From positions 1-23,764 of the IMG/VR virus record IMGVR_UViG_3300033149_007071: 23,764 nucleotides of DNA. One strand, 5' to 3'. This DNA is from a virus. The stretch's first letter is position 1. The number at the start of each line of letters is the position of its first letter. The notes beneath the pieces were generated by a model, which was not told where the DNA came from, made no database searches, and saw only the letters and a list, made by a program, of their open reading frames with translations. Position numbers and translations under genes: made by a program. Positions 19,319-22,281 of this stretch are shown one piece after another.

Positions 19319-20196
19319 ACCCGACCCAACGACAGTTGCTGCTCGCGCAGCGTCGTATGACGGCGGCGCTGGCGGCAGCCGAAGCGCCGGCCCTGCGGGA
19401 CGAGCCGCTGCGGCGGCCGGACGTCCTTCGCCGGGGCATCGCGAGGATCGACAGCAACGAGGGAGAAGCTGCGTACAAGGTCACCGAGCTGTGGTGGGAT
19501 CCCGACGGCCGGGAGTGGACTGCCGCCGCGGGCCCGCTGGGCCTCGAGCAGGCAGACGCCGTCGACTACACGCACAACGCGTGCGGAGAGGTCGGCGACG
19601 TCGTGCGCTTCTGGGAGCATCGCGGCCTGGATGGCCGGACGCAACTGCTCATCGACGTCACCGGGGGCCGGGCCGGCCTCCAGAAACTCTCCTCCTTCTG
19701 TGTCCACTATTCCGGCACGAACACGACCGCGGTGTTTCACAGCGTCCCGAACTGCAAGAACGCGCTGCTCGAAGTGGGCATTGACGTGCGAAGGTGTTCG
19801 GCACACGCGGGTCCTCCCGACCCCGACCACCCCGGCGACACGACGATGGGCGTCACGGGAGGGTTTATGGGCTTCGGCTGGTGCAACGCGCTGGCCACGT
19901 GGTCCGGTGGGGATTGGTGCAACCTGAAGTATCTGGCCCGGGCGGCAAACGGGGCGGTCGAGGGCGACGGCGCAAACGCGATCACGAGCTTTCACATCCA
20001 GTGCCGGGTCACCGCCGCCGGGAATCTGGATTTCCGAATCGAGAACGTCACCGGCGGCTGTGTCAGCGTCGTCGTCGCCGCGGCGATGCGGATTATGCCG
20101 TTCCCCGAGACGCCTCCCGGAACACTGGAACTCGGCAACTGCTGCTGCCACGATGACTACATGGACGACGAGTATCAATGGGGCGAGATCCCCTGA
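19315..20196 (+). CDS. Cysteine-rich tail protein of unknown function
   Basis: A 293-residue protein whose ATG overlaps the hub stop by four bases. The N-terminus is helical and Ala/Arg-rich ('LLLAQRRMTAALAAAEAPAL'). The middle is beta-rich, and the C-terminal half is rich in cysteines, ending with 'NCCCHDDYMDDEYQWGEIP'. The odd three-cysteine patch and acidic, aromatic end suggest a metal site or disulfide-linked surface. It is translated in line with the hub and is probably an accessory tip or fibre protein. I do not recognise the family. Confidence 0.5.
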   Translation: MNPTQRQLLLAQRRMTAALAAAEAPALRDEPLRRPDVLRRGIARIDSNEGEAAYKVTELWWDPDGREWTAAAGPLGLEQADAVDYTHNACGEVGDVVRFWEHRGLDGRTQLLIDVTGGRAGLQKLSSFCVHYSGTNTTAVFHSVPNCKNALLEVGIDVRRCSAHAGPPDPDHPGDTTMGVTGGFMGFGWCNALATWSGGDWCNLKYLARAANGAVEGDGANAITSFHIQCRVTAAGNLDFRIENVTGGCVSVVVAAAMRIMPFPETPPGTLELGNCCCHDDYMDDEYQWGEIP

Positions 20197-20813
20197 CAAC
20201 AAAGACGGAACTCGGAACCCGGAACCCGTTCAACGGCTGCCGGCACGGCGCCCTGCGAACCCGATACTTGGGGCTCGCGGGCGTTCAGCTCGCCGTGCTC
20301 GACGGCCACGGCATTAATGAGCACCTCGCGCGCTGGAGTCAGAGGTTCCCCCATCGTTGGCGAGTCGAGGGCTCGCCCAATCGCAAGGGAATCCCGGACG
20401 CCAAGAACGGGATCTTCCGCGCCTTTCGGGACAGGTGCGACCTGCCGTGGCTGCTCATGATGGACGACGACTGCGTCCCGCTGCCGGAAACGGAGGCTCT
20501 GCTGACCTGCCAGGCCCCCATCGCCGGCCCCCGCATCATCGGAACGACCGGAGAGGAAGCGCACGCGCACTGCCTCAGCGCTGCTTGCGTGAAGATCAGC
20601 CGCGAGGCGATCGAACGGATCCCCGAGCCGTGGTTCCGCTGGCCCGCTCGCGGAGGCTGCTCGTGCAGTTGGTTTTTCAACCGGGCGTACCAGGCCGGCT
20701 ATCGGCCTACCCACGCCGGCGTCATCGGCCACCGCTTCCCCGTGGTGGTCCTGCCGGGGAAAGACGGCCCGGTGTTCCGGTTCGATTCGGAGATCCGCAG
20801 TGCCCAGGTGTGA
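20178..20813 (+). CDS. GT-A-like glycosyltransferase
   Basis: A 211-residue protein that starts inside the end of the previous gene. The segment 'LPWLLMMDDDCVPLPETEAL' (DDD at about residues 96-98) is the DXD metal and nucleotide-sugar site of a GT-A fold, preceded by 'AKNGIFRAF' as in family 2-like enzymes that pick a sugar. The C-terminal 'GYRPTHAGVIGHRF' fits the catalytic half. It would add a sugar to an unknown acceptor, perhaps a fibre or capsid protein. It is short for the family, so it may be a minimal or partial enzyme. The start may be further downstream, as no strong ribosome site precedes 20178. Confidence 0.62.
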   Translation: MGRDPLTTKTELGTRNPFNGCRHGALRTRYLGLAGVQLAVLDGHGINEHLARWSQRFPHRWRVEGSPNRKGIPDAKNGIFRAFRDRCDLPWLLMMDDDCVPLPETEALLTCQAPIAGPRIIGTTGEEAHAHCLSAACVKISREAIERIPEPWFRWPARGGCSCSWFFNRAYQAGYRPTHAGVIGHRFPVVVLPGKDGPVFRFDSEIRSAQV

Positions 20814-21118: not shown

Positions 21119-21322
21119 ATGAACCAGACGAGACCCGGGTACAAGACGACGGAGTTCTGGCTCAGCCTGCTGGCGACGCTGATCGGCCTTCTGATGGCCA
21201 GCGGCGCGCTGGATCAGCTCCCGGAAGACTCCTGGATCGCGAAGCTCATCGGCGGGGCCGTGGCCGTCCTGGCGGCGCTCGGCTACACGGCCGGCCGCGC
21301 CAAGGTCAAGAGCGGCCAATGA
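21119..21322 (+). CDS. Phage holin
   Basis: A 67-residue protein with the ribosome site 'aggag'. It begins with a polar 'GYKTTEFWLSLLATLIGLL' segment, has a second hydrophobic stretch ('AKLIGGAVAVLAALGYTAG') and a basic tail ('AKVKSGQ'). Two membrane segments of this kind, with an acidic turn ('PEDSW') between, are typical of small holins, which form holes in the inner membrane at the end of infection. Length is normal for the class. Its end overlaps the following gene by four bases. Confidence 0.75.
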   Translation: MNQTRPGYKTTEFWLSLLATLIGLLMASGALDQLPEDSWIAKLIGGAVAVLAALGYTAGRAKVKSGQ

Positions 21323-21510
21323 ACGGTCTGTGGGCGGCCCTCGCGCCCGTCGTGGAACTCATCCTGCGCGTCCTGCTGGACGTGCTTGTGGAGAACGCCA
21401 ATGCGCCGGATACGGCCGTGTCTGCTGGCCGCGACGCTGCTCGCGCTGAGCGCCTTCGCCGGCGGGTGCGGGCTCATAAGGAGCAGGACCGTTCTGATCC
21501 CGCCGGGTGA
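21319..21510 (+). CDS. Putative small inner spanin-like protein
   Basis: A 63-residue protein from an ATG overlapping the holin stop. Residues about 3-25 ('LWAALAPVVELILRVLLDVL') are hydrophobic but contain two charged residues, so it is either a membrane anchor or an amphipathic helix. The remainder is basic and helical ('RAERLRRRVRAHKEQDR'). The lipoprotein gene at 21401 begins inside it in another frame, as in nested Rz/Rz1 pairs. Inner spanins are usually longer (100 or more residues), so this may be truncated or different. Confidence 0.42.
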   Translation: MNGLWAALAPVVELILRVLLDVLVENANAPDTAVSAGRDAARAERLRRRVRAHKEQDRSDPAG

Positions 21511-21646
21511 GCCCGTCCAGCTCGCCGAACCCGTCAAGGCCCACGTCTATATCGACGTCGCCGGCAAACGCGAGAAAAGCGCGAACCGCATCACGCTCCC
21601 GGAAGGCTGGTGGTGCCTGCCCGATCCGGTCGCCGACGCTCCATAG
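21401..21646 (+). CDS. Outer spanin-like lipoprotein, ending inside a repeat
   Basis: An 81-residue protein nested in the previous gene in another frame, with 'ggag' eight bases upstream. It has a basic start, a hydrophobic signal segment and a possible lipidation cysteine at C23 ('AFAGGC', not an ideal lipobox). The rest ('VLIPPGEPVQLAEPVK', 'RITLPEGWWCLPDP') matches small phage lipoproteins that carry 'PxGxPVxL' and 'LPEGWY.LP' motifs near lysis genes. It would sit on the outer membrane inner leaflet and may work with the upstream protein as a spanin pair. Its last residues and stop come from the first repeat unit at 21630, so its natural end may have been replaced. Confidence 0.55.
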   Translation: MRRIRPCLLAATLLALSAFAGGCGLIRSRTVLIPPGEPVQLAEPVKAHVYIDVAGKREKSANRITLPEGWWCLPDPVADAP

Positions 21647-21810
21647 TCGCCGACGCTCCATAGCTATGGCGACGGAGCGTCGCCGACGCTCCATAGTCGC
21701 CGACGCTCCATAGTCGCCGACGCTCCATAGCTATGGCGACGGAGCGCTATGGCGACGGAGCGCTATGGCGACGGAGCGCTATGGCGACGGAGCGCCATGG
21801 CGACGGAGCG
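21630..21810. repeat. First cluster of 16/17-bp CCATAG/CTATGG units
   Basis: Two short units fill this stretch without gaps. Unit A is 'tcgccgacgctccatag' (17 bp) and unit B is 'ctatggcgacggagcg' (16 bp). The order is A A B A A A B B B B and one variant B (starting 'ccatgg'), from 21630 to 21810. Where A meets B, a perfect 12-bp palindrome 'ccatagctatgg' arises. Apart from one final variant, all copies are identical, so the array is young. It overlaps the end of the lipoprotein gene at 21401, and A supplies its stop codon. No spacers are present, so it is not a CRISPR array. Confidence 0.9.
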
Positions 21811-21861
21811 GGCGATGACCGGCCGTGAGCGCCGATGGGGGGAGACTGGACACTTGGTACG

Positions 21862-22281
21862 ATGAGACAGCATCGCGGCGGCTTGTCCGGGCTCGCCATA
21901 TTGCTTGCCGTTTTGTCGGCCCTCTTGGCCGGCTGCGCGCCCGAAGGCCCGGGGCATCTCATCGTCTACGCCCCGGCCGGAAGCATCATCGCCGCGGCGC
22001 CCCCCGCCGGGCTGCTTGTGAAGCTCCCCGACGGGTCGCCGACGCTCGATAGCTATGGCGACGGAGCGCCGCCGACGCTCGATAGCTATGGCGACGGAGC
22101 GCCGCCGACGCTCCATAGCTATGGCGACGGAGCGCCGCCGACGCTCCATAGCTATGGCGACGGAGCGCCGCCGACGCTCCATAGCTATGGCGACGCGATA
22201 GCTATGGCGACGGAGCGCCGCCGACGCTCGATAGCTATGGCGACGGAGCGACGATGCGCCCCGCGGACTTCCTTCAGATAG
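21862..22281 (+). CDS. Lipoprotein with 11-residue repeats, frame broken by deletion
   Basis: A 139-residue reading frame. A basic start and hydrophobic segment precede an ideal lipobox LLAGC (C25), so it should be exported and lipid-anchored. Residues 60-103 are four copies of an 11-residue unit, PTLDSYGDGAP or PTLHSYGDGAP, followed by a partial fifth copy (104-111). Then a 16-bp deletion in the repeat shifts the frame, and the last 28 residues, Arg-rich and ending at 22281, look like a wrong frame. The part after the array is plausible in another frame (see 22254-22433). No strong ribosome site precedes the ATG at 21862; an in-frame ATG at 21835 is an alternative. Without the repeat it may resemble the preceding lipoprotein in size and role. 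Confidence 0.55.
   Translation: MRQHRGGLSGLAILLAVLSALLAGCAPEGPGHLIVYAPAGSIIAAAPPAGLLVKLPDGSPTLDSYGDGAPPTLDSYGDGAPPTLHSYGDGAPPTLHSYGDGAPPTLHSYGDAIAMATERRRRSIAMATERRCAPRTSFR
22036..22250. repeat. Second cluster: 33-bp A+B units, in frame in a lipoprotein
   Basis: Here A-type units (with 'ctcgatag' or 'ctccatag' ends) and B units alternate strictly, giving a 33-bp period with copies starting at 22036, 22069, 22102, 22135 and 22168. A shorter piece at 22185-22201 ('ctatggcgacg' joined to 'cgatag') replaces a full pair, then a B unit (22202-22217), an A unit (22218-22234) and a final B unit (22235-22250). The 33-bp period is divisible by three, so it reads through as an 11-residue repeat. The short piece equals a loss of 16 bp, which breaks the frame. 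The units are the same as in the first cluster 225 bp upstream. Confidence 0.9.

Follow-up and report, generated by a model that had tools for sequence, protein, structure and literature searches.

A dispersed 33-bp hairpin-forming sequence, probably a miniature mobile element, in tandem arrays within two lipoprotein genes of a phage

Rickettsia palindromic elements (RPEs), REPs/REPINs, PARCELs and MITEs are the described systems that come closest to the element considered here, E1, a 33-bp sequence (TCGCCGACGCTCCATAGCTNTGGCGACGGAGCG) found in two arrays of a virus record and as dispersed copies in bacteria. RPEs are about 150 bp long (review PMC10969869). Like them, E1 is palindromic, dispersed, placed in frame in unrelated protein genes and selfish-looking, but RPEs were described from Rickettsia whereas E1 is exactly 33 bp, occurs in about seven phyla and has the target DG^NGG. 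No Rickettsia was among the genome matches of E1; length and host description set RPEs apart. PARCELs are amphipathic tandem units of 75 nt or 25 residues (PMC2996958). They share with E1 the palindromic coding repeats, the in-frame tandem arrays, a patchy distribution suggesting horizontal transfer and lipoproteins among their sites, but E1 has 33 nt or 11 residues and is mostly present in single copy. E1 is similar to MITEs in being miniature, non-autonomous by its size, of inverted-repeat character and selective for its target, but there is no target-site duplication and a parent transposon was not found. REPs have been recorded within genes, and the CGTC REPs lack a transposase of their own (PMC3733652). 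E1 behaves like RPEs and is shaped like a REP, but it lacks the REP tag and the link to RAYT, and it is much shorter than RPEs and PARCELs.

The window, by which we mean the whole stretch of DNA analysed, is a 23.8-kb IMG/VR virus record encoding a terminase, a portal and a major head protein. Its portal matches, at best ~25-32% identical, are in Planctomycetota. Array 1 (21630-21810) and array 2 (22036-22250) are both on the plus strand, and their lengths of 181 and 215 bp rest on metagenome assembly, in which short reads may have misjudged both. Array 1 consists of five A half-units of 17 bp (TCGCCGACGCTCCATAG) and six B half-units of 16 bp (CTATGGCGACGGAGCG) in the order AABAAABBBBB, with the final B ending in CCATGG, and contains two complete E1 elements (21647-21679 and 21714-21746). 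Array 2 is built up by tandem E1 with a 33-bp period, but one unit is short by 16 bp, resulting in a 50-bp step around 22168-22217. The copies of the units are identical except for CTCC/CTCG, T or C at the start of A and the last B.

An initial annotation of this DNA had described the A and B units, their near-identity and the 225-bp gap between the clusters, and all of this is borne out. It rightly saw an irregular order in the first cluster and a 33-bp period in the second, but it counted one B too few in the former and took the latter to alternate strictly, which the 50-bp step from the 16-bp loss contradicts. A and B had also been treated as separate units; they are halves of a single 33-bp element and not independent. 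The window has 11 occurrences of the core 15-mer CTATGGCGACGGAGC and 0 of the reversed control, and chance is therefore rejected for the arrays, including the possibility that the units might be a coincidence. The units abut without the unique, similar-sized spacers of a CRISPR, and the earlier opinion that no standard repeat class fits holds up, as does that of a recent expansion. Two other repeats were seen in the window: a degenerate 8-bp tandem repeat (CTCGTTGA) at 2002-2061, with its complement at about 2181-2215, which is unrelated to E1, and a G+C-rich 21-bp tandem repeat of 2.4 copies at 160-210.

Both arrays lie in genes of the lysis region. Lipoprotein gene 1 (21401-21646, plus strand) starts with an ATG at 21401 within a program-called ORF from 21386, and array 1 supplies its last codons, so that the protein now ends in LPDP/VADAP before the stop codon, where the slash marks the join. 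If the array is left out, the ending reads LPDP/GR. Homologues in four viral contigs end in LPDPGE (two), LPDPGPEGQ (one) and LPDEVSATEADDQQAGP (one), and a seed sequence for the repeat is absent at that position. This is good evidence, drawn from sequence comparison, that array 1 entered at the old end of the gene, because its removal restores LPDPGR, similar to the LPDPGE of the homologues.

Lipoprotein gene 2 (21862-22281, plus strand), which has a weak Rz-like spanin match (E 0.017), carries array 2. The array starts on a codon boundary and adds 11-residue repeats, PPTL[DH]SYGDGA, as far as the loss of 16 bp, where the frame shifts; the array that had been described as in frame within a gene is so up to this loss and not beyond it. 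With array 2 left out, the protein is continuous in frame (...LLVKLPDG/TMRPADFLQIGEPLKLTIEPAGE...). A search for homologues of lipoprotein 2 gave none, so its empty site is putative. The two sites have similar-looking flanks. The initial annotation overlooked that the positions of the arrays are sites of insertion into two lipoprotein genes and that E1 behaves as an in-frame insertion element would. Upstream of lipoprotein gene 1 is a small membrane protein (21119-21322, plus strand), holin-like by position and size, which had no PHROG match; its frame is kept beside lipoprotein 1 in related viral contigs. An ORF just upstream of the lysis-region genes (20178-20813) has a weak glycosyltransferase match (PHROG 2456, E 6e-4).

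E1 is dispersed among distantly related bacteria. A search of 84,980 species genomes for the 18-mer ATAGCTATGGCGACGGAG, which bridges units A and B, gave 23 loci. Twenty of these, in 16 genomes from about seven phyla, are isolated copies with essentially all of TCGCCGACGCTCCATAGCTATGGCGACGGAGCG, and the remaining three (L050, L053 and L057) are chance matches. One complete copy in array 1, together with its left-flanking G (GTCGCCGACGCTCCATAGCTATGGCGACGGAGCG, 21713-21746, plus strand), has exactly the sequence of single copies found in MAGs from several phyla. The carriers, nearly all of them MAGs, belong to Patescibacteria (Woese-, Sacchari-, Moran- and Brennerbacteria), Planctomycetota, Sumerlaeota, Armatimonadota, Elusimicrobia and Bacteroidetes, and include a deltaproteobacterium. 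Many of the copies are intergenic. The Sumerlaeota MAG LacPavin_0920_SED5_MAG_50_10 has 38 copies in its whole genome at three mismatches or fewer, where the variable central base N is mostly T or C, while other carrier genomes have one to four each at the same threshold and the reversed pattern gives 0. Of the other Sumerlaeota genomes searched, none of 39 had the exact-arm pattern; of 392 Planctomycetota genomes, 2 had it. This pattern of a single burst with scattered occurrences elsewhere is that expected of mobile DNA.

Exact cores were required in the genome and virus scans. The dispersed copies that the initial annotation had proposed to look for are many, but they come from bacterial MAGs, spread over many phyla, and not from further phage records. 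No other IMG/VR contig contained an exact 19-mer from the A side, 40 IMG/VR matches to the 15-mer proved to be unrelated singletons rather than E1 in other viruses, and there was no match in the phage, plasmid and E. coli collections; the phage as a vehicle of E1 thus rests on one record. No description of the sequence or its peptides was found in the text of 5.39 million open-access papers. E1 is probably a miniature mobile element, so far unnamed.

The flanks of 60 distinct copies show a marked bias. Each of the 60 has a G directly before TCGCC, C is never seen at position -2 (p 2e-8), and GG follows at +3/+4 after GGAGCG in 26 copies when 3.9 would be expected (p about 1e-15). The bias is common to the 25 copies assigned to genomes outside the Sumerlaeota MAG, giving a single target preference, DG^NGG. 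Where the target is known, as for copies in E2 (described below) and the htpX copy, the G and the following bases are the target's own, and flanking direct repeats are not in excess (mean 0.30 compared with 0.44 in permuted flanks). E1 is therefore 33 bp long and its insertion is precise and without duplication. Array 2 is followed by ACG, against the NGG rule. Complementary flanks with strong stems were found in 6 of 60 copies when 1.7 were expected, an excess partly due to nesting in E2. At L058, L062, L063, L065 and L067, E1 lies between complementary sequences, as if inside the loop of an existing hairpin, and L058, L063 and L067 are striking cases of this. The modest excess makes targeting of hairpin loops a lead only.

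E1 has a length of eleven codons, and the version in the window is open in four of six frames. Judged from their sequence, the Sumerlaeota copies with T or C as central base open a fifth frame, and one L138 copy is translated in it. The htpX gene of a Brennerbacteria MAG has E1 in a loop, where it adds SPTLHSYGDGA, and 11 of 11 homologues have nothing there. A PilQ-type secretin in the Sumerlaeota MAG has two copies in different frames, which correspond to two 33-bp gaps in a relative of 68% identity. Open frames also traverse E1 in a DUF6298/collagen-binding protein, a nitroreductase, a PMT_2 glycosyltransferase and an ABC-2 membrane protein. In a Woesebacteria MAG, a loop of the Rho transcription termination factor likewise contains E1 (L045:1096-2574:-). 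This copy was dropped as a case of exact insertion, as that loop differs in length among relatives, several of which have other, unrelated insertions there.

Further elements of similar kind were found. E2 (GCCTACTTCGCCGAAGTGGCTACGAAGGCTGAA) is a second dispersed palindromic element of 33 bp, seen at loci L064, L066 and L165-L184 of G001, L163 of G006 and L164 of G014. The Sumerlaeota MAG has about 20 matches to it, and at least one long ORF contains it in frame (AYFAEVATKAE, L166). Nesting occurs both ways, with E1 within E2 and E2 within E1, and a 66-bp composite of E1 with E2 is dispersed at 11 different sites; unless the composite itself is mobile, this is difficult to account for. A triple nest was found around 1850-2000 of L052, where E1 lies in E3 (TCCGCCGTCGCCGAAGCCTATGGCGGAGGACGA, 33 bp), which in turn lies in another E1. 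The palindromic core of E4 (CCTTCGCTAAAGCTACGGCGG, L190-L219) occurs in 103 of 380 Patescibacteria genomes at two mismatches or fewer, with up to 20 copies in one genome and 0 in the reversed control. By eye, one copy of E4 (L215) is apparently in frame in a UvrC-like protein. E4 is similar to E1 and perhaps belongs with E1, E2 and E3.

As a single strand of 34 nt, E1 has as its most stable predicted fold a 28-nt hairpin with a 6-nt 3' tail (-9.2 kcal/mol, z -2.6). The tail is GGAGCG, or CGCTCC on the other strand. A hairpin had been anticipated in the initial annotation and is indeed predicted, but not simply as the palindrome CCATAGCTATGG on which it was based. The predicted folds of E1, E3 and E4 are alike, with a hairpin of 26-28 nt, an internal loop and a 3' tail of 6-7 nt.

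We consider it quite probable that E1 is a dispersed 33-bp miniature mobile element, capable of forming a hairpin, and that it expanded locally after entering the phage. The dispersed copies, the target bias, the in-frame 33-bp insertions, the nesting and the clean join left by array 1 are observed and speak for this. E1 would be non-autonomous and would be moved by an enzyme supplied in trans, inserting at DG^NGG without target duplication. The length of eleven codons and the mostly open frames would let it enter protein genes without breaking them, and it may have entered the lipoprotein genes of the phage lysis region once or twice. Replication slippage, or a switch of template between the palindromic half-units, would then have expanded it locally, so that array 1 would derive from half-unit duplications (AABAAABBBBB) and array 2 from duplications of the whole 33 bp with a loss of 16 bp. 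An order of nested insertions was also considered for array 1, because its first ten letters balance like parentheses, but was rejected as this has a chance of one in six.

The arrays could in principle be an ordinary minisatellite generated by slippage from local phage sequence, with no mobile element involved. Slippage fits the near-identical tandem copies, the in-frame 33-bp period, the runs of half-units and the 16-bp indel, and after insertion it is the likely way of expansion. As the origin of the repeat it is very unlikely, however, given isolated copies of the same 33 bp with a common target bias in unrelated genomes of many phyla, the conserved gene end restored by removal of array 1, and the homologues of lipoprotein 1 without a seed. 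The dispersed copies might instead be members of a REP family mobilised by RAYT (IS200/IS605-like Y1) transposases. E1 has the dimensions of a REP, being a 33-34 nt imperfect hairpin within the range of 20-40 nt, with an internal loop and an unpaired, single-stranded foot, and it shares with REPs the many copies in a burst-like number and the lack of target duplication; REPs in genes and CGTC REPs without transposase are, as noted above, on record. On the other hand, inspection of 60 copies revealed no GTAG/CGTC tag at the foot of the hairpin, and an exact length of 33 bp, frequent in-frame placement in genes and near-identity across several phyla are unusual for REPs. The Y1/RAYT transposase domain PF01797 is absent from the 38-copy Sumerlaeota MAG, which is possibly incomplete, and it is not linked to the copy number of E4 (14 of 20 E4-rich compared with 16 of 30 E4-free Patescibacteria). 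We regard this explanation as unlikely.

Selection for a function rather than mobility, with E1 as a regulatory RNA, a terminator or a protein-binding site, would agree with the predicted hairpin, the many intergenic copies and the complementary flanks of some of them (6 compared with 1.7 expected). It appears highly improbable because an Rfam search of the window arrays gave no match, the copies in the middle of the HtpX and secretin genes are missing from orthologues, and the target bias, the nesting and the re-dispersed composite are not expected of a functional motif. That the copies are artefacts, either chimeras made in assembly or a technical oligonucleotide of the metagenome libraries, is suggested by carriers that are nearly all MAGs and by arrays of 181 and 215 bp, which are difficult for short reads. 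Yet numerous independent studies contributed copies, one of which (L067) is on a 3.1-Mb MAG chromosome record, and the copies keep reading frames, nest and carry lineage-specific central variants, which makes an artefact extremely improbable.

Beyond the mobile element E1 itself, it is possible, although we hold this only tentatively, that E1, E2 and E3, perhaps joined by E4, make up a superfamily of mobile parasites of about 33 bp that are tuned to protein-coding DNA by their eleven codons, few stops and, for E1, precise insertion at DG^NGG. Such parasites would move by an unrecognised mechanism, spread between phyla sometimes on phages, nest in each other and seed in-frame protein repeats.

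If E1 is mobile, a sequence of 33 bp has moved nearly unchanged across distant bacterial phyla and enters genes in frame, htpX and a secretin gene among them, without stopping translation. One would then ask what enzyme acts on a hairpin of 33 bp to move it, why the element has a whole number of codons and whether phages are among its carriers. The arrays in the phage would represent one route from an insert to a tandem protein repeat.
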